Shown: in pieces, positions 25,858-34,478 of the stretch | Numbering within the stretch: the stretch's first letter is position 1 | Layout: each line of letters opens with the position of its first letter | Assembly: GCA_937995655.1 (NCBI GenBank) | Contig: CALKJI010000005.1 | Coordinates: 248,001-312,000 of the forward strand | Direction: 5' to 3' | Source of the DNA: an uncultured Pseudothermotoga sp. | Lineage (GTDB): Bacteria > Thermotogota > Thermotogae > Thermotogales > DSM-5069 | Length of the DNA: 64,000 nucleotides | The notes under the pieces: generated by a model | What the model saw: the letters and a program-made list of their open reading frames with translations, nothing else | Database searches by the model: none | What the model was told of the DNA's origin: nothing | Made by a program: the position numbers and the translations under genes

Positions 25858-26211
25858 TGGTGGAGGCGGGGGGAATTGAACCCCCGTCCGAGAGTGAGTA
25901 CCCCCAGGCGTCTCCGAGTGCAGCCTGCGTTTTGAATTCAGCTTGCGACACCCACAGGCAGGTTTCGCAAGCTATATCCTTCCTGTAATTCTCATCGGAA
26001 AACGGAAGGCAGATTTTCCGATGATAGACTGGTTATCTCACGCCCCTATCCGAGCACCAGTCAGACTCGGTAAGGACGGCTGCTTATCTGTTAAGCAGCA
26101 AGTGCAAGTTCTTCGTTGGCACTTATTTGTTGTTTCACCTTTTTAACGAGGTGGTGAAGACCTCGACTCGCTTCCTGGGGGACCTCAAACCCGTCGAAAC
26201 CGTTCGCCCCC
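25858..26211 (-). ncRNA. ssrA: Transfer-messenger RNA (tmRNA)
   Basis: About 354 bases on the minus strand. The 5' end GGGGGCG pairs with CGCCTCC before an ACCA 3' end at 25858, and the T-arm-like GGGGGTTCAATTCCCCC is present. The tag frame (26091-26120) is GCC AAC GAA GAA CTT GCA CTT GCT GCT TAA, giving ANEELALAA, so the full tag with the charged alanine would be AANEELALAA, close to the remembered Thermotoga tag AANEPVAVAA. With SmpB it frees stalled ribosomes and marks their products for proteolysis by ClpP-type and other proteases. Confidence 0.96.
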
Positions 26212-26258: not shown

Positions 26259-27779
26259 TCACAACCCAAAGTCTGAGAGCCTTCTTTTTATAACATTCAA
26301 AAATGCCTTATAGAGATTGGGATTAAATTTTACTCCGATCATTTCTCTTTCAATGACCCTTAATGCTTCATCTAAACTCATAGCGGGCCTGTAAGGTCTT
26401 TCTTCAATGAGCGCTGTGAAAACATCAACCAAAGAAACTATTTGTGCTCTGACACTGATTTGATTACCTACTAATCCGTCAGGATAACCTGACCCATCTA
26501 TGTTTTCATGATGATGTCTGACAATATCTGCTACCAAGTCCCAACCAGAGATATTCTTGACGATCTTCTCGCCGTAGATGGGATGTTTTTTCATTATTTC
26601 GAATTCGTCAAAAGTGAGCCTGCCAGGTTTGTTCAGTATATGCTCTGGTATCCCTATTTTTCCCACGTCGTGTAATAATGCACCAAATTTTATTGCTTCC
26701 AGATCTGCAGGATCTGTTATGCCAAGTTCTTTTGCTAAATCGAGTGCAAGGCTAACCACCCTGCTAGAATGACCAAATGTAGTCGTATCTTTTATTTCAA
26801 TGGCTTCTGCAAGAGTGGATATTATCTGTGTATTCCTTTCTTGAAGGACTCTCTGCATCTCTTCGAGTTCATTCACTGTATCCTGCAAACTGTTCATCAT
26901 GGCATGCATTTCAACTTGTGAAGCTTTGTCTATTTCAAGAAGCTTTACGATAGACTCCTGTAACTCGTTCAGTTCATCGATCCTGGTTTTCACAGGTACA
27001 TAGTTTACCTCTTTATCCTTTCCAATTTGTGTTGTACTCCTGCTTATGTTATTGATTACCATTGCAGTAGCACCAACGAGTTTAGTTTCAAATCTCAGAA
27101 AAAATATCATCCAAACAACCGTTCCTATCAAGGCAAAGGATGAGATAATCAGATACGGTAGTAACAAAACAAAATAGCTTCGAATAGGTATGAAGACGCC
27201 AACCTTTGCGTTTGCTATAGGTAAATCTTCAAGATACAAGTATCCAGGAATGTTGTTCAATCTTACAAATCTGTTCTTGGTTCCCGTATTGACACCTGCT
27301 GTTTCTGCTTGTGTCGACAGGACGACTTTACCCTGATCGGTGAGCAAGAGCACATCTGCAAAATGGCTGGACAAAAAACTCTTGAAAAAAAATTGTGGTA
27401 TCTCGATGAACAATAAATTGTTTTGATTTTCAAGCAAAAATTTTGCACTGTTTCCAGGGGTGAAAAGCCCTTTGGAATCTGGCACAAGCCAGGGGAGTTT
27501 ACTGTACGACAAGACCCGTGAAAGATCAAAACCACTTTGTAAATCTACAAGATCCTGACTCAGCGTCCTTGCAACAATATCAGCTTGTTGCTTTCCTTTG
27601 AGTGCGCTGTCGATTACATTCTCCAAAAGTCGTCTCTCAGACATTAAATAGGTCTGAGAATAATACTTATGAACATTTTGAAAGATTATCACAAAACCGA
27701 TTATGAAAACCAAGAACAAAGTGAGTATCAAAAGCAACCCGTACCTTGCCAATCTTCGCACTGCAACTGAGAGCTTCAT
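26259..27779 (-). CDS. Membrane sensor with HD-GYP domain, cyclic di-GMP phosphodiesterase type
   Basis: A 506-residue protein: first membrane helix (YGLLLILTLFLVFIIGFVII, about 14-33), an outside domain of about 165 residues, second helix (FVLLLPYLIISSFALIGTVV, about 204-225), a HAMP-like/coiled-coil link, and a C-terminal HD-GYP domain with FGHSSRVVSLALDLAKELG, LLHDVGKIGIPEHILNKPG, KKHPIYGEKIV, RHHHENIDGSGYPDGL and SLVDVFTAL. The metal-binding HD and the GYP (GSGYP) motif are complete, so hydrolysis of cyclic di-GMP is expected. It overlaps the preceding binding-protein gene by ATGA, so the two are likely made together. Confidence 0.92.
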   Translation of the reverse strand: MKLSVAVRRLARYGLLLILTLFLVFIIGFVIIFQNVHKYYSQTYLMSERRLLENVIDSALKGKQQADIVARTLSQDLVDLQSGFDLSRVLSYSKLPWLVPDSKGLFTPGNSAKFLLENQNNLLFIEIPQFFFKSFLSSHFADVLLLTDQGKVVLSTQAETAGVNTGTKNRFVRLNNIPGYLYLEDLPIANAKVGVFIPIRSYFVLLLPYLIISSFALIGTVVWMIFFLRFETKLVGATAMVINNISRSTTQIGKDKEVNYVPVKTRIDELNELQESIVKLLEIDKASQVEMHAMMNSLQDTVNELEEMQRVLQERNTQIISTLAEAIEIKDTTTFGHSSRVVSLALDLAKELGITDPADLEAIKFGALLHDVGKIGIPEHILNKPGRLTFDEFEIMKKHPIYGEKIVKNISGWDLVADIVRHHHENIDGSGYPDGLVGNQISVRAQIVSLVDVFTALIEERPYRPAMSLDEALRVIEREMIGVKFNPNLYKAFLNVIKRRLSDFGL

Positions 27780-28774
27780 TTTGCCACCTCATCGCCAACG
27801 AATTGACCATTTTTCACTAGCACAAAGTTTCTTGATCTTGAAACAGACAGATCGGGTTCTACTGTAAAGGTTCCTGTTATTCCTGTGAACTTCTTGCCCA
27901 AAAGATAGTTGTAGGCTTCATCGGTCCTGATTTTAGAAGAAATCAGCGACCATATGACCATTAAAGCATCATAACTACCAGCTTCTTGAAGATCTATAAA
28001 ACCGAATTTTGTCATCTGTGAAAAATCAAAAAGATTATATACTATCATTCCTTCAACTGCCAGTCCACCCGTTAGAATGAGTGCATCTGTGTAAGCGTAA
28101 TCAGATCCATAGATAGTTCCTTTGAAACCTTTTCTGACAGCTAACTGGGCTACCAATCCGGCAACTCTTCCGTCAAGAACTAGTACCATTGAATCATATT
28201 GTGAAAAGTCAAAGTTCAATAATTCATCAGCAGAGTTTATGTACAAACAATCCAATGGAAATGATGAAGATTGAGCCATTATTTTGAAAAGATTTTCACT
28301 GTAAACGACGTTGTTTTTGTCACAGATTACGATCGTATTCTTTCTAAGATCCTCTCGCAACCTTTGGACTAATTCTTTTGCTTGCAAGTTATCTGAGGCA
28401 CTCAAAGTCATAAGAAATCTACTCTTTCCAATAACACTCGGAGAAGTTACAAGAGGTGCTATAGCAAAGATTTGATACTTCTCAAGATATGGAAGCAAAG
28501 ATAGTGCCTCTGTACTAGTCCTTGGGCCAACTGCATAACAGTTGGTGTATCTAGGCAAAATCTTTTCAATCTCATCGATGCGTTGATCGACTCTGATTGT
28601 TACGAGTTGTACCTTCAAATTATTTTCTTTTGCATAACGTTCGATACCGATTCGAAAATTAGTTTCACCATCTTCAAAATTTATTATTGTTATACCGGTT
28701 TGCTTTGAATACAAAACTAGTGCTATTAGACTCACAACCACAACCAGTACTATGATCAGGATCGACTGCTTCAC
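27776..28774 (-). CDS. Membrane-tethered periplasmic binding protein-like sensor
   Basis: A 332-residue protein with an N-terminal membrane helix (SILIIVLVVVVSLIALVLYS) that has no clear signal cleavage or lipobox, then a type I periplasmic-binding-protein fold like the Leu/Ile/Val-binding group (AVGPRTSTEALSLLPYLEKY, IFAIAPLVTSPSVIGKSRFL, GTIYGSDYAYTDALILTGGL). It is not next to permease genes of its own. Starting at GTG 28774 it overlaps DegV by GTGA, and its end overlaps the HD-GYP gene. It probably binds a ligand outside the cell and passes the signal to the HD-GYP sensor (inference). Confidence 0.8.
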   Translation of the reverse strand: MKQSILIIVLVVVVSLIALVLYSKQTGITIINFEDGETNFRIGIERYAKENNLKVQLVTIRVDQRIDEIEKILPRYTNCYAVGPRTSTEALSLLPYLEKYQIFAIAPLVTSPSVIGKSRFLMTLSASDNLQAKELVQRLREDLRKNTIVICDKNNVVYSENLFKIMAQSSSFPLDCLYINSADELLNFDFSQYDSMVLVLDGRVAGLVAQLAVRKGFKGTIYGSDYAYTDALILTGGLAVEGMIVYNLFDFSQMTKFGFIDLQEAGSYDALMVIWSLISSKIRTDEAYNYLLGKKFTGITGTFTVEPDLSVSRSRNFVLVKNGQFVGDEVAK

Positions 28775-29634
28775 CCAACAACCTCCAAGCCAAAACCAGC
28801 TGTTCCTGGGCCAACGTGTGTGGTGATAACCTTTCCCATTTCAGTAAAACCGACATCCAAGACTTCATAATGTTGTTTCAGCATTTCCAGAAGAACTCTG
28901 GTACTCTCCCGTGCGTCAGCATCGACCATGAGCAGTCTTACCTTAGAACCCTTTGGCACCAAACTCAAAGCTTTGTTGACAAGCATCTCCTGAGCTCTCT
29001 TAGTACCTCTTGCCTTTTCGAATGGCACCAGCTTTCCCTCGGGATCGATCCACAAGCCTACATGGACATTGAGTAATGATCCGAAGAATCCTTGCATGCG
29101 TGATACCCTTCCACCTTTGACCAGAAAATCAAAGTTTGAAACGTAAAATATCGCCTTATATCTTCCATTTTTGATATCCTGCTCAAGTAACTCAACTATC
29201 TTCTGTGCACTCAATCCTTCTTTTTCCAACTCTCTTGCACGCCTGGCCGGTAATGATACAGCTGCAGATGCGAGTTTACTGTCAATTACGAAGACAGGTA
29301 TTTTGACCTCTTTGGCGGCACTCAAAGCTGAATCGTAGGTTCCAGAAAGTTTTGTTGAAATACATATGACAAGAATTTGTTCATAGCCATCTTTTTGTAT
29401 TTCCCTGTACAGCGAAACAAACTCACCTACCGATGGTTGAGAGCTCTTTGGTAGTTCTTTTGCTGTGGAGACTCTCTTATAGAAATCTTGTATCTTTTCA
29501 AGGTCTCTTGTATCATCCTCTTGATCTCCATTTGGCCAAACGATGTGTAAAGGAGAGATTGCAATATCCAACTGCTTGATCCATTCTCTTGGTATGTCAC
29601 ATGTGCTATCTAAAACTATTTTCATCTTTGGCAT
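28771..29634 (-). CDS. DegV family fatty acid-binding protein
   Basis: A DegV protein of 287 residues from ATG 29634, which follows AAAGGAGGCG. Marks are KIVLDSTCDIPREW at the start, the SSQPSVGEF region, ISTKLSGTYDSALSAAKEV, and the end THVGPGTAGFGLEVVG. DegV proteins bind a single fatty acid and can feed a fatty acid kinase; many paralogs exist with unknown targets. The first gene of a coupled trio with a tethered binding protein and an HD-GYP sensor. An in-frame extension to 29685 has no ribosome-binding site. Confidence 0.92.
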   Translation of the reverse strand: MPKMKIVLDSTCDIPREWIKQLDIAISPLHIVWPNGDQEDDTRDLEKIQDFYKRVSTAKELPKSSQPSVGEFVSLYREIQKDGYEQILVICISTKLSGTYDSALSAAKEVKIPVFVIDSKLASAAVSLPARRARELEKEGLSAQKIVELLEQDIKNGRYKAIFYVSNFDFLVKGGRVSRMQGFFGSLLNVHVGLWIDPEGKLVPFEKARGTKRAQEMLVNKALSLVPKGSKVRLLMVDADARESTRVLLEMLKQHYEVLDVGFTEMGKVITTHVGPGTAGFGLEVVG

Positions 29635-29822: not shown

Positions 29823-30551
29823 TCAAGCAATTGCAACACCAAGGTAGGCCTTCCTCACGTTGTCGCTGCTGAGCAAGTTTTGACCTGTATCCTGCATGAC
29901 TATTTTTCCTGTTTCAAGTACATACCCATAATCTGCTATCTTAAGAGCCGCAAGTGCATTCTGTTCCACTAAGAGTATTGTCACGCCTTCTTCTCTTATT
30001 TTCTGAATTATTTGGAAAACTTCTCGCACGAGCAACGGTGCCAATCCTAAAGAAGGTTCATCGAGCATGAGTAATTTTGGTCTTGTCATCAAACCTCGTG
30101 CAACTGCAAGCATCTGTTGCTCTCCACCAGAGAGTGTTCCACCCAGTTGTTTTAACCTCTCCTTCAACCTTGGAAAAAGTGTCAGAACCCAGTCTAAATC
30201 TTTTCTGATACTTTCGGTGTCCTTTCTCGCGTACGCGCCCATCATCAGGTTTTCATAAACGGTGAGGTTTGGAAAGATTCTTCTACCTTCCGGTACCAGT
30301 GCTATGCCACTGTTCACAATCTGGTGAGTCGACGTGTGAGTTATATCGTAATCATTGAAAAACACCTTACCGCCACTCTTTCTGACGAGATTTGTTATGG
30401 CTTGCAGTGTGGTTGTTTTGCCAGCACCATTGGCACCTATCAACGTAACTATCTGACCGGCTTTTACATCGATACTAATTCCCTTCAGAGCGTGTATGTT
30501 GCCATAATGTACATGCATGTCCTGGATCTTGAGGACTGTTTGGTTGCTCAC
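29823..30551 (-). CDS. livF: Branched-chain amino acid ABC transporter ATPase LivF
   Basis: A 242-residue ATPase with Walker A GANGAGKTT, signature LSGGEQQMLAVARGL and Walker B LLMLDEPSLGLAP; the sequence LVEQNALAALKIADYGYVLE is LivF-typical. It is the last gene of the livJHMGF operon and starts at GTG 30551, overlapping livG by GTGA. No clear terminator follows before degV. Confidence 0.95.
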   Translation of the reverse strand: MSNQTVLKIQDMHVHYGNIHALKGISIDVKAGQIVTLIGANGAGKTTTLQAITNLVRKSGGKVFFNDYDITHTSTHQIVNSGIALVPEGRRIFPNLTVYENLMMGAYARKDTESIRKDLDWVLTLFPRLKERLKQLGGTLSGGEQQMLAVARGLMTRPKLLMLDEPSLGLAPLLVREVFQIIQKIREEGVTILLVEQNALAALKIADYGYVLETGKIVMQDTGQNLLSSDNVRKAYLGVAIA

Positions 30552-31327
30552 AGGAGCACCTCCTCTCCAAGATATGCTTTTATCACCACTGGGTTAGATT
30601 GAATTTGCTGTGGGTTTCCTTCTGCTATCAATTTACCGTAGTCCATAACATATATTCTTTCACAGATACCCATTATCACCTTCATATCGTGTTCGATTAT
30701 CATTATCGTCAGATGAAAATCACTTCTGATTTGCTTTATGAATTCCATGAGTTCAGATGTTTCCTGTGGATTCATGCCAGCTGCAGGCTCATCTAAAAGA
30801 AGCATCTTGGGATCAGTTGCCAAGGCTCTTGCTATCTCAAGTTTTCTCTGTAAGCCATATGGGAGTGAACTGGCCTTCTCGTTTGCAAAACTCTCTAACC
30901 CAACTCTTCTCAGAAGTCTCAATCCCTCTTCGCGCATTTGTTTCTCCATACGAATACTGTCTGGAGTCTTGACGATGCTTTTGAAAAACCACAACCAGTT
31001 TCTCAGTTTCAAATGTTGTGAAACCATGACGTTTTCAAGGACTGTCATATCTGAGAACAGACGTATGTTCTGAAATGTTCGGGCTATGCCACACCTAGTT
31101 ATCTCGTGGGGTTTGTGACCAGATATGTCTTTGCCCAAGAAAACAATATTACCCTCGTCTGGAGCATACATACCCGTGATGACGTTGAAAAGGGTAGTCT
31201 TACCGGCACCGTTGGGACCTATCAAACCCAGCAATTCTCCCTGCTTTACGTATCCATCAAATCGATCAACGGCTACGAGACCTCCGAAACGTTTGGTGAC
31301 ATTGTTTATTCGTAAAACTTCATTCAT
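30548..31327 (-). CDS. livG: Branched-chain amino acid ABC transporter ATPase LivG
   Basis: An ATPase of 259 residues with Walker A GPNGAGKTT, signature LPYGLQRKLEIARAL (the LivG form), Walker B MLLLDEPAAGMNP and H-loop IIEHDMKVIMGICERI. The start is ATG 31327 behind AGAGGTGGC; it overlaps the livM stop by ATGAATGA. With LivF it drives uptake of the ligand delivered by the LivJ-type protein. Confidence 0.95.
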   Translation of the reverse strand: MNEVLRINNVTKRFGGLVAVDRFDGYVKQGELLGLIGPNGAGKTTLFNVITGMYAPDEGNIVFLGKDISGHKPHEITRCGIARTFQNIRLFSDMTVLENVMVSQHLKLRNWLWFFKSIVKTPDSIRMEKQMREEGLRLLRRVGLESFANEKASSLPYGLQRKLEIARALATDPKMLLLDEPAAGMNPQETSELMEFIKQIRSDFHLTIMIIEHDMKVIMGICERIYVMDYGKLIAEGNPQQIQSNPVVIKAYLGEEVLL

Positions 31328-32390
31328 CGTTGCCACCTCTTTTTTTCAGTCTCTTAGCGACTAAAGCATAGACCGAATCCCAAGATAATTCCTTTCTTCC
31401 CATAATCCCCCGTTGCCAAAAGAGCATGAGTACAATGAGCAGAACTGAAAGAACAACCATTCTCATACCGGGAATCCCGGGAAAACTTATGAAGCCTATT
31501 TTGAAAGGGCTTTCAAGAACCCTCAAGAACTCCAGCCCAACGGTATAAATCGATGCCCCTATGATTGCCCCACTTATGCTGCCAAGACCTCCTAAAACGG
31601 CCATGATGAGTATTTCAAAGGTCTTAGAGAAGGCAAAGGATTTGGGATCTATTGTGGTTATCAAATGTGCCCAGAGTGCGCCCCCGACGCCTGCAAACAA
31701 AGAACCAAGCACGAAACTAACTACTTGGTGCGAAAAGACATTTATTCCCATTGCCTTCGCAGCTATTGGATCTTCTCTGATGGCTTTTAGGGCACGTCCA
31801 TAACTACTTTTCACCAAACTGGAAATCACCAAAACCGTTACGAATGCCCATCCCCAGGACCAATAGATGTTCGTATAGGGAGGTATTGCCTTCAAGCCGA
31901 GTGCACCGTTCGTGATCGACCAAGCATTGTTTGCAATTATTCTTATAGTTTCACCAAGGCCAAGCGTGGCTATTGCAAGATAATCTCCGATCAACCTGAG
32001 TGATGGTGCAGCAACAATATAACCAAAACCGGCCGCAACAAGACCAGCTATGAGCGTTGCTGGCAAGAAGGGCAACTGAATCTGATTCAAGGGATATATC
32101 AAGGGTTTTATCAGAAATGTCATTTCCTTTTGTGACACGGAAAGGGTCAGCAGCGTTGACACATAAGCGCCGATAGCTATAAAACCAGCATGACCAAGCG
32201 AAAAGATACCTGTGATACCGTTTATCAAAGTGAGTGATACTGAAAAGATTATATTTATTGCCATCAAATTGAGTATGAGTATGACATATTCACTTGCCTT
32301 ATTGTTGGCAAGGAATAGAAGGATACCAATCAGGAATATCAAGACAATCGTTAGAAAAAATTTCAGGTTGTTTGGAAGTGTTTTTTCCAT
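31320..32390 (-). CDS. livM: Branched-chain amino acid ABC transporter permease LivM
   Basis: An inner-membrane permease of 356 residues from ATG 32390 (MEKTLPNNLKFF), which follows AAAAGGTGTGAT; a longer frame to 32480 lies inside livH. It has about 8-9 membrane segments with family stretches LINGITGIFSLGHAGFIAIG and the coupling loop YGRALKAIREDPIAAKAMGI. It pairs with LivH. Confidence 0.94.
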   Translation of the reverse strand: MEKTLPNNLKFFLTIVLIFLIGILLFLANNKASEYVILILNLMAINIIFSVSLTLINGITGIFSLGHAGFIAIGAYVSTLLTLSVSQKEMTFLIKPLIYPLNQIQLPFLPATLIAGLVAAGFGYIVAAPSLRLIGDYLAIATLGLGETIRIIANNAWSITNGALGLKAIPPYTNIYWSWGWAFVTVLVISSLVKSSYGRALKAIREDPIAAKAMGINVFSHQVVSFVLGSLFAGVGGALWAHLITTIDPKSFAFSKTFEILIMAVLGGLGSISGAIIGASIYTVGLEFLRVLESPFKIGFISFPGIPGMRMVVLSVLLIVLMLFWQRGIMGRKELSWDSVYALVAKRLKKRGGNDE

Positions 32391-32394
32391 GCTA

Positions 32395-33303
32395 TCACAC
32401 CTTTTCAGATACTTCAACACCAAGTATTCCTGTAGGTTTGACGAGTAAAACAAACAAAAGTATTGCGTATGCGAAAGCATCTCTGTATCCTGCTAAAGAT
32501 GGTACAAATGCCACGATCATTATTTCACTTATGCCCAATATAAAACCACCAACCATGGCGCCTTGAATACTACCTATGCCTCCTACAACTGCTGCTATGA
32601 AGGCCTTGAGACCGGGGATCATACCGGTGTAAGGATAAACCTGTGGATATTTCATTGCCCAGAGGATTCCACCAATTGCGGCAAGTCCCGAGCCCAACAT
32701 GAATGTAAAACTGATCACTCTATCGGCATTAACACCCATTAATCTTGTTGTTGGAATATCTTTTGAGATAGCCCTCATTGCCATTCCAATTTTGGTTCTA
32801 TAGACGATCCACATCAAAAGTATCAAGGCTACAAAAACAATGCCTATCGTTATGAAAGTAAGGATGGGTATTCTAACATTACCAATGTTGATCATATTCA
32901 AAAACGACGTTGGATAAATACCGGTCTGAGGATTGAAAGATTTCGCTCTTCCACCGAAGACTACTACTGCAAAATTTTGTAAGAAGAAGGAAACACCGAT
33001 AGCTGTTATGAGAGCTGATATTCTTGGCGCATTTCTCAAAGGTCGGTACGCTATTCTCTCAATGAAAGCTCCTAAGAAAGCTGTTAAAAAAATTGAGAAG
33101 ACAAAAGCTATCCACCATGGCATTAAAAACAACACTACACCGTAAAAAGCAAAGTAAATACCATACGTAAAGACATCGCCGTGTGCAAAATTAATAAGTC
33201 TCAAGATGCCGTAAACCATCGTATAGCCTATAGCAATCAAAGCATAGATTCCACCAAGAGAAACTGCATTAACCAGATGCTGTAAGAATCCAGAAAGATT
33301 CAA
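32395..33303 (-). CDS. livH: Branched-chain amino acid ABC transporter permease LivH
   Basis: A permease of 302 residues. The start is set at TTG 33303 behind GGGGGTGA; the longer open frame to 33354 would translate a hairpin after livJ. Family stretches are LVNAVSLGGIYALIAIGYTM, VYGILRLINFAHGDVFTYG, and the coupling loop IGMAMRAISKDIPTTRLMGV. The product forms the membrane channel with LivM. Confidence 0.92.
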   Translation of the reverse strand: MNLSGFLQHLVNAVSLGGIYALIAIGYTMVYGILRLINFAHGDVFTYGIYFAFYGVVLFLMPWWIAFVFSIFLTAFLGAFIERIAYRPLRNAPRISALITAIGVSFFLQNFAVVVFGGRAKSFNPQTGIYPTSFLNMINIGNVRIPILTFITIGIVFVALILLMWIVYRTKIGMAMRAISKDIPTTRLMGVNADRVISFTFMLGSGLAAIGGILWAMKYPQVYPYTGMIPGLKAFIAAVVGGIGSIQGAMVGGFILGISEIMIVAFVPSLAGYRDAFAYAILLFVLLVKPTGILGVEVSEKV

Positions 33304-33326
33304 GGAATCACCCCCGATTTTGGAAA

Positions 33327-33346
33327 AGCCCCCCTTAGCGGGGGCT
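33327..33346 (-). terminator. Hairpin between livJ and livH, likely partial terminator
   Basis: On the minus strand AGCCCCCG, loop CTAA and GGGGGGCT are followed by TTTTCC. It lies directly after the livJ stop and before the livH ribosome-binding site. The short T-run suggests partial stopping, giving more binding protein than permease, or protection of the livJ message end. Confidence 0.65.
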
Positions 33347-33350
33347 CCTG

Positions 33351-34478
33351 TCATGGTCTAACGACGGTCATGAGAATAAACTGTCCATTCTTCACAGTGT
33401 TAATAACGGCCGGCTTCACGGGATCTCCAGAACCCTCTGGATAAGTTATAGATCCACCGACACCTTGAAAGTCCTTTGTTGCAGCAAGAGCATCTCTGAT
33501 GGCGACAGGATCAATTGACTGAGCTCTTTCTATTGCGTCGAGTACAAGATTGTAAGCGTCGAATGCTAAAGCACCGAAGGCATCAGGTCTTCTGTTGTAT
33601 TCTTTTATATAAGCTTCAACGAAAGGTTTTGTCGCAGGTGAAAGATCGGCATCTTGATGGAAGTAGGTTGTGTAGTAAAGTCCTTCGACAAACTTTCCAC
33701 CTATCTGTATCAATTCTGGTGCATCGGCACCATCACCCGCTAAGAAGTTACCTTTAAAACCCAATTCTCGAGCTTGTTTGCAGATCAAAGCTATTTCAGA
33801 GTAATATCCTGGCAAGAAAATTGTGTCTGGCTTCTTGGACAAAGCATCTGTAAGTTGAGCTGTGAAGTCTTGATCACCAGTGTTGTAATACTCTTCAAAG
33901 AATTTTCCACCAAGCTGTGCAAACTTTCTCTTAAAATAGTTAGCAAGCCCGACCACATAGTCTTGAGCCACATCGACCATGATCGCTACATTTCTCGAGC
34001 CGAGTTGTTCCCACGCGAACTTTGCAAGTAGTTCTCCCTGCATTGGATCGATAAAACATGCTCTGAAAATGAACCTTCTGTTTTGTGTCACAAGCGGGTT
34101 TGTTGCAGTGTTTGTAACCATAGGAACCTGTTTTTGCTCTGCTATTGCACCAGCCGCAAGAGCACAGGAACTGGTGCATGGCCCAAGAATGGTGACTACT
34201 TTTTCAACATCAATCAGCCTTTTTACAACATTAGCAGCTTCAGCTTTGTCGCCTTTGTTATCAAGCAAAACTACCTTCACTGGTACATCCTTGTTGCCAA
34301 TTCTTACTGTTGGTCTGAGTTTCATTGCTAACTTCACGCCGTCCCACGACATCTGACCAAAGCCCGCGATAGGACCTGTCATTTCCCAACCTGCACCGAT
34401 CTTTACTTCGCTGATCTCACTTGCTAAGACTACAACGAAGGCCAGAACAGTTGCGATAGCCACGTAGAACTTCCGCAT
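33351..34478 (-). CDS. livJ: Branched-chain amino acid-type ABC transporter substrate-binding protein
   Basis: A 375-residue secreted binding protein. It has a signal peptide (KFYVAIATVLAFVVVLAS), then VKIGAGWEMTGPIAGFGQMS, LLDNKGDKAEAANVVKRLID, ILGPCTSSCALAAGAIAEQK and YTTYFHQDADLSPATKPFVE, all usual for type I amino-acid-binding proteins. The ATG follows AAAGGGGGTTGG. The ligand may be a branched-chain amino acid, an amide or urea-like compound; sequence reading alone does not decide. Confidence 0.92.
   Translation of the reverse strand: MRKFYVAIATVLAFVVVLASEISEVKIGAGWEMTGPIAGFGQMSWDGVKLAMKLRPTVRIGNKDVPVKVVLLDNKGDKAEAANVVKRLIDVEKVVTILGPCTSSCALAAGAIAEQKQVPMVTNTATNPLVTQNRRFIFRACFIDPMQGELLAKFAWEQLGSRNVAIMVDVAQDYVVGLANYFKRKFAQLGGKFFEEYYNTGDQDFTAQLTDALSKKPDTIFLPGYYSEIALICKQARELGFKGNFLAGDGADAPELIQIGGKFVEGLYYTTYFHQDADLSPATKPFVEAYIKEYNRRPDAFGALAFDAYNLVLDAIERAQSIDPVAIRDALAATKDFQGVGGSITYPEGSGDPVKPAVINTVKNGQFILMTVVRP

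Follow-up and report, generated by a model that had tools for sequence, protein, structure and literature searches.

A membrane-tethered LivK-like binding protein encoded with a transmembrane HD-GYP protein in Thermotogota: a candidate two-protein receptor

A window of 64,000 nucleotides, the whole stretch of DNA analysed, sits in contig C5 of the 2.1-Mb genome of an uncultured Pseudothermotoga sp. and carries three overlapping genes on its minus strand, which encode a DegV/FakB-like protein (28771-29634; 287 amino acids, ATG start with AAAGGAGG upstream; Pfam DegV, E 1.7e-73), a tethered ligand-binding protein (BP; 27776-28774; 332 amino acids, GTG start) and a transmembrane HD-GYP protein (26259-27779; 506 amino acids; Pfam HD_5, E 3.4e-37) in which the catalytic motifs are present. 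Both four-base overlaps described by a first-pass annotation of this DNA were exact when read directly: on the minus strand, the GTGA at 28771-28774 unites the DegV stop with the BP start, and the ATGA at 27776-27779 the BP stop with the HD-GYP start; the latter overlap also occurs in two sister genomes. The complete liv operon noted beside them (livF, livG, livM, livH and livK) was found at 29823-34478 on the same strand, upstream of DegV, and has a LivK gene of its own at 33351-34478.

The family profile and an AlphaFold model assign BP a LivK-like type I periplasmic-binding fold, which agrees with the Leu/Ile/Val-type fold first ascribed to it. The profile matched LivJ and LivK structures with E values down to 4e-16, and the model (predicted local distance difference test (pLDDT) 78, predicted template modelling score (pTM) 0.73) matched LivK TM1135 of Thermotoga maritima (PDB 3td9; E 4.9e-16); this model and that of the HD-GYP protein were each built from alignments only three sequences deep. 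The single window sequence, on the other hand, matched no Pfam family above cut-off (no Peripla_BP_6 match; ANF_receptor at E 0.16), so that the kinship to LivK is visible by family profile and fold only and not by a curated family model. In the model a helix at residues 2-23 covers a hydrophobic stretch at residues 5-23 (28706-28762, minus strand; Kyte-Doolittle mean 3.22), which carries neither a lipobox nor an AxA cleavage site; the part predicted to lie outside covers about residues 27-332. The lipobox is absent from 40/40 BP family members and an AxA-type site occurs in one only, in keeping with the plain membrane anchor initially proposed.

Five pocket residues of LivJ (Ser79, Thr102, Asp121, Tyr150 and Glu226), which we take to grip the alpha-amino and carboxylate groups of the ligand in LivJ and in class C receptors, align with Ser87, Thr110, Asp128, Tyr158 and Asp225 of BP. 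The serine is invariant in 40/40 family members, and all five motif residues are kept in seven of the ten members of family f1 and in all aligned members of f11, f8 and f5 (labels denote genomes, G; loci, L; families, f; and genera, g; f1 is the family of the window BP). From these five positions the ligand is most likely an alpha-amino acid. Moreover, two LivJ side-chain pocket residues are replaced throughout f1 (10/10 members each), Leu77 by Arg (Arg85 in the window BP) and Tyr202 by Asp or Glu (Asp201), which argues for a ligand other than Leu, Ile or Val. The earlier suggestion that the unit shares the ligand of the liv operon fares poorly on these replacements, and also because outside f1 the pair does not stand beside that operon.

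The HD-GYP protein has membrane helices near residues 15-33 and 210-228, an extracytoplasmic sensor domain at residues 34-209 (27153-27680, minus strand) that is private to BP-linked genes, and an HD-GYP catalytic domain at residues 323-487 (26319-26813, minus strand; Pfam HD_5 and motif reading). Its motifs are complete (HDxGK, the His residues (HH), GYP and the final Asp), and Pfam found neither a GGDEF nor an EAL domain; the outside sensing domain and complete HD-GYP domain of the first-pass annotation were thus both recovered. The catalytic residues are likewise complete in aligned f1 and f3 members and intact at the motifs checked in L074; HDxGK, HH and GYP are all present in the window, f1 and f3 proteins and not in those of f11. 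The window protein is a predicted phosphodiesterase of cyclic di-GMP (c-di-GMP). For the sensor domain no Pfam match rose above cut-off, and no relative of solved structure emerged; Gly104, Lys113 and Glu126-Ile-Pro128 (HD-GYP protein numbering) are invariant in it. By hhalign, homology joins the sensor domains of f1, f3 and f11 (probability 96-98%) and probably extends to that of L074, an f9 locus with reversed gene order (59-78%).

Among 103 Thermotogota genomes, the sensor-domain profile found 30 at E < 1e-12, with one copy each; three further matches at E > 1e-4 were treated as chance. In 30/30 of these genomes, from four families, the domain lies directly beside BP, and it occurs nowhere without BP (co-presence Fisher p 1.4e-12, computed as if the genomes were independent, although they are not). 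As 24 of the 30 genomes went into the profile, a fair test is offered by the remaining six (G007, G008, G014, G026, G093 and G100), and the sensor stands beside BP in all of them, in G100 with the two genes in reversed order and a four-base overlap. Each of 12 sampled genomes encodes 9-21 HD_5 genes and 6-17 GGDEF genes, so that such a neighbour would be a few-per-cent event for a random gene; no other HD_5 gene of these genomes matched the sensor-domain profile. Furthermore, BP and sensor tree distances correlate at r=0.92, still 0.92 when the HD domain is controlled for, with a within-family permutation p of 5e-4. Thus BP and the HD-GYP sensor are, with strong support, an evolutionarily locked pair. 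One contig scan for relatives outside Thermotogota, made with a single degenerate peptide pattern, returned two loci, both from Thermotogota, which weakly suggests a restriction to this phylum.

The BP profile itself (E <= 1e-20) matched 52 of the 103 genomes; G029 was set aside as its sole match was judged an ordinary LivK, and all neighbourhoods of the other 51 were read. The order DegV, BP, HD-GYP is found in 10/11 f1 genomes, that is in all ten with BP (the eleventh is 71% complete and has no BP), and lies behind the liv operon, save that the G010 contig starts too late to show the operon. BP is followed by the HD-GYP gene in 13/19 f3 genomes, and in g6 and g14 it is preceded by a GDPD gene. 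At the g6/g14 loci L045, L050, L059, L060 and L070, three genes are kept, namely the one upstream of BP (GDPD in L049), BP itself and one of 175-192 amino acids, and the HD-GYP gene that lies between the latter two in sister species is gone, an apparently clean loss with BP retained. All six f11 genomes have the pair, two of them with tandem BP genes (L072, 6492-8664; L073, 3106-5196, a single frame through runs of unknown bases); at L040, L041, L042 and L071 of this family a convergent gene follows closely downstream, which matches the GGDEF profile and in L040 is GAF-GGDEF by Pfam. At the f8 locus L043 (6055-10554) BP has an A24 prepilin-peptidase gene on one side and RseC/MutS2-type genes on the other, and the G047 contig (f6) stops at BP. 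Thus the order search in Thermotogota proposed at the outset recovered the BP/HD-GYP pair in four families, and the trio it had envisaged was confined to f1, the only family with DegV upstream of BP.

The partner of BP varies in other lineages. Six f9 loci were read: L074 has the HD-GYP gene upstream of BP with a four-base overlap; L078 has a split HD-GYP-like gene beside BP; at L076 a REC-HD-GYP protein and a histidine kinase flank BP, one on each side; and at L077, L079 and L081 the neighbours are GGDEF proteins with an intact GGDEF that seem, on reading, to carry their own binding-protein domain. In f5, a transmembrane GGDEF-type protein follows BP in 7/7 loci (L047, L055, L058, L061, L064, L065 and L066); the profile of its outside domain matched eight genomes, all f5 and with one copy each, seven of them beside BP and the eighth near a contig end. 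A docking domain shared by the HD-GYP and f5 GGDEF partners was considered and rejected (hhalign probability < 4%), and with no detectable homology between their sensors none is claimed. Just upstream of BP in L047 are genes of ornithine/lysine aminomutase type (Pfam), which belong to amino-acid breakdown. BP does not stand beside a liv operon in f3, f5, f11, f8 or f9; no transporter genes of its own were found next to it outside f1, and the liv operon that adjoins it in f1 has its own LivK, as the claim of a binding protein without its own transporter had it.

The four-base overlap of DegV and BP is present in 10/10 f1 genomes with BP, so co-expression is likely; DegV is probably co-transcribed with BP in f1 only. 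A promoter and terminator scan gave sites no commoner than in shuffled sequences. In f3, f5 and f11 the closest relatives of the window DegV in the tree are encoded away from BP; an f3 DegV gene divergent from BP was tried as the orthologue and rejected, the tree showing it to be a different paralogue. With its orthologues elsewhere in the other families, DegV is a family-specific neighbour, a passenger of the f1 cluster and not part of the class-wide unit. The window DegV scored 183 bits against the FakB1 equivalog, below the cut-off of 350. FakA is encoded elsewhere in the host genome, so that DegV may be an ordinary FakB-like protein. DegV had been drawn into the signalling unit as a supplier or sensor of a fatty acid: its place in the unit finds no support, since there are BP/HD-GYP pairs that lack it, and nothing links it to the sensor. 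At three g3 loci (L034, 7318-9282; L035, 7069-9033; L037, 8188-10173) a methyl-accepting chemotaxis protein gene, assigned by Pfam from L034 only, separates livF from DegV and shares four bases with the latter; this chemoreceptor might use the same tethered BP. At the other end of the window cluster, a transfer-messenger RNA gene (Rfam RF00023, 195.9 bits) lies at 25858-26211 on the minus strand, directly downstream of the HD-GYP gene.

Our favoured reading, to which we give a probability of roughly two-thirds, is a membrane receptor of two proteins, BP and the HD-GYP protein, in which an amino-acid Venus-flytrap alters c-di-GMP hydrolysis. The two are probably one receptor because they are inherited together through a sensor domain seen nowhere else in the genomes searched. 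The one N-terminal helix would anchor BP on the outside of the cytoplasmic membrane, where its flytrap would close on a small molecule, most probably an alpha-amino acid; the open or the closed form would then dock on the private sensor domain of its partner, and the second membrane helix, followed by a long helical linker, would carry the change to the HD-GYP domain and so alter the rate of c-di-GMP hydrolysis. In this manner extracellular amino-acid supply would influence c-di-GMP-controlled behaviour, for example the sessile or motile state. Gene pairing, sensor exclusivity, distance covariation, the predicted fold, the anchor, and the pocket and catalytic residues form the observed basis, from which we infer the BP-sensor contact, the ligand, the direction of regulation and the enzyme activity. 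The core of the original proposal, a tethered protein paired with the HD-GYP sensor, is borne out by the co-location and the co-varying distances, once DegV and the shared ligand are removed from it.

Several observations weigh against this receptor. At the pocket, f3 members have Asn at the position of Asp128 and often Ser at that of Thr110, three f1 members have His in place of Tyr158, and the register depends on alignments of ~20% identity. The model of the HD-GYP protein (pLDDT 48 from three sequences) is too poor to interpret, and the covariation takes in three clades only, so that it supports contact without proving it. Six f3 genomes (g6/g14) have BP with no adjacent c-di-GMP partner, and none adjoins BP in the three f8 genomes. 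Moreover, f11 partners have lost the Lys of HDxGK, some with further deletions, and three aligned f11 members lack the usual first His motif, while in 7/7 f5 partners Glu replaces the second Gly of GGDEF (GEDEF, GEDSF, AEDKF). With these catalytic residues lost, the output enzyme is probably inactive in the f11 and f5 lineages and the output there probably not enzymatic, which none of the explanations offered here accounts for.

The decay of the partner in f11 and f5, together with the loss of some pocket residues in f3, would suit an accessory role, in which BP has lost ligand binding and serves the HD-GYP protein structurally, for docking or stabilisation. We regard this as unlikely, since the pocket Ser is invariant across the family and the five motif residues persist in most f1 members and in every aligned member of f11, f8 and f5. 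The pocket also bears on the proposal that DegV, BP and the HD-GYP protein constitute one fatty-acid or lipid sensing unit. The DegV/BP overlap in every f1 genome with BP and the presence of FakA in the genome speak for such a unit, which is nevertheless very unlikely, as the pocket of BP aligns with one for amino acids, DegV scores below the FakB1 equivalog cut-off, its orthologues lie away from BP in other families and BP/HD-GYP pairs occur without it.

Alternatively, the neighbouring Liv transporter could draw on BP as an additional substrate-binding protein, tethered for efficiency, the HD-GYP gene being adjacent by accident; the LivK-like fold of BP and its place behind the liv operon in f1 speak for this. 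However, that operon already encodes LivK, the side-chain pocket of BP is unlike that of LivJ, and in f3, f5, f11, f8 and f9 BP lies away from the liv operon, with a c-di-GMP partner kept in most, which makes transporter feeding improbable to a high degree. Part of the linkage between BP and the HD-GYP gene is explained by vertical inheritance, and one might see in it conserved gene order only, with no interaction. Yet the pair persists while the flanking context varies on both sides among families, G100 has the two genes in reversed order, GGDEF proteins take the partner's place in f5 and at some f9 loci, and the sensor domain never occurs without BP; gene order alone is thus a very unlikely account.

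The receptor reading has counterparts elsewhere. XylFII is membrane-anchored, and the output of its partner LytS is a histidine kinase. In that system a binding protein acts through the outside domain of a transmembrane sensor, and a crystal complex is reported to exist (PMC9769921), but the LytS outside domain is a four-helix bundle and the ligand is xylose. The polyamine receptor NspS-MbaA of Vibrio cholerae (PMC8967002), also found in Sinorhizobium (PMC9993111), likewise encodes a separate outside binding protein beside a transmembrane c-di-GMP enzyme, and the ligand state of NspS sets the c-di-GMP level through MbaA (PMC8967002); NspS, however, is periplasmic and binds polyamines, and MbaA has GGDEF and EAL domains, whereas here a LivK-like protein with a membrane helix accompanies an HD-GYP enzyme whose outside domain belongs to no known family. 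GlnH-GlnX of Corynebacterium glutamicum resembles the pair in having a tethered amino-acid-binding protein thought to signal via a transmembrane partner (PMC9769921), but GlnH is an SBP_bac_3 lipoprotein and GlnX acts on the kinase PknG, with no c-di-GMP involved. As its components differ from those of all three, the BP/HD-GYP pair would work like these systems without being a member of them. LivK and LivJ (PDB 3td9 and 2liv) share the fold and the aligned amino-acid-gripping residues with BP but are soluble transporter subunits, whereas BP is tethered, lacks a dedicated transporter and carries Arg and Asp/Glu at two pocket positions. In RmcA (PMC8846402) and CdgH (PMC5431781) a domain of periplasmic-binding-protein type is the input to c-di-GMP turnover, but it is fused within the same protein, whereas BP is a separate tethered protein of another class. 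We found no precedent for a tethered-flytrap receptor of HD-GYP enzymes.

The chances are about even that this arrangement extends to a class-wide Thermotogota receptor family, in which the tethered amino-acid flytrap would be the common input and the partner exchangeable (active or degenerate HD-GYP, degenerate or active GGDEF), each docking through a private outside domain; if true, this would also define a new extracytoplasmic domain family. For many c-di-GMP enzymes the input signal is not known (PMC8846402), and few studies have dealt with c-di-GMP signalling in Thermotogota. In Fervidobacterium islandicum grown on keratin, c-di-GMP changes and raised GGDEF and HD-GYP expression were reported in a 2026 study (PMC13157175), which would be compatible with an amino-acid or peptide input. 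The pair would give a likely function to an outside domain recognised by no family library, and a receptor with two named halves and a candidate ligand class is directly testable using heat-stable proteins. Furthermore, exchange of the partner between HD-GYP and GGDEF proteins would show one kind of input being rewired between removing and making the same messenger.

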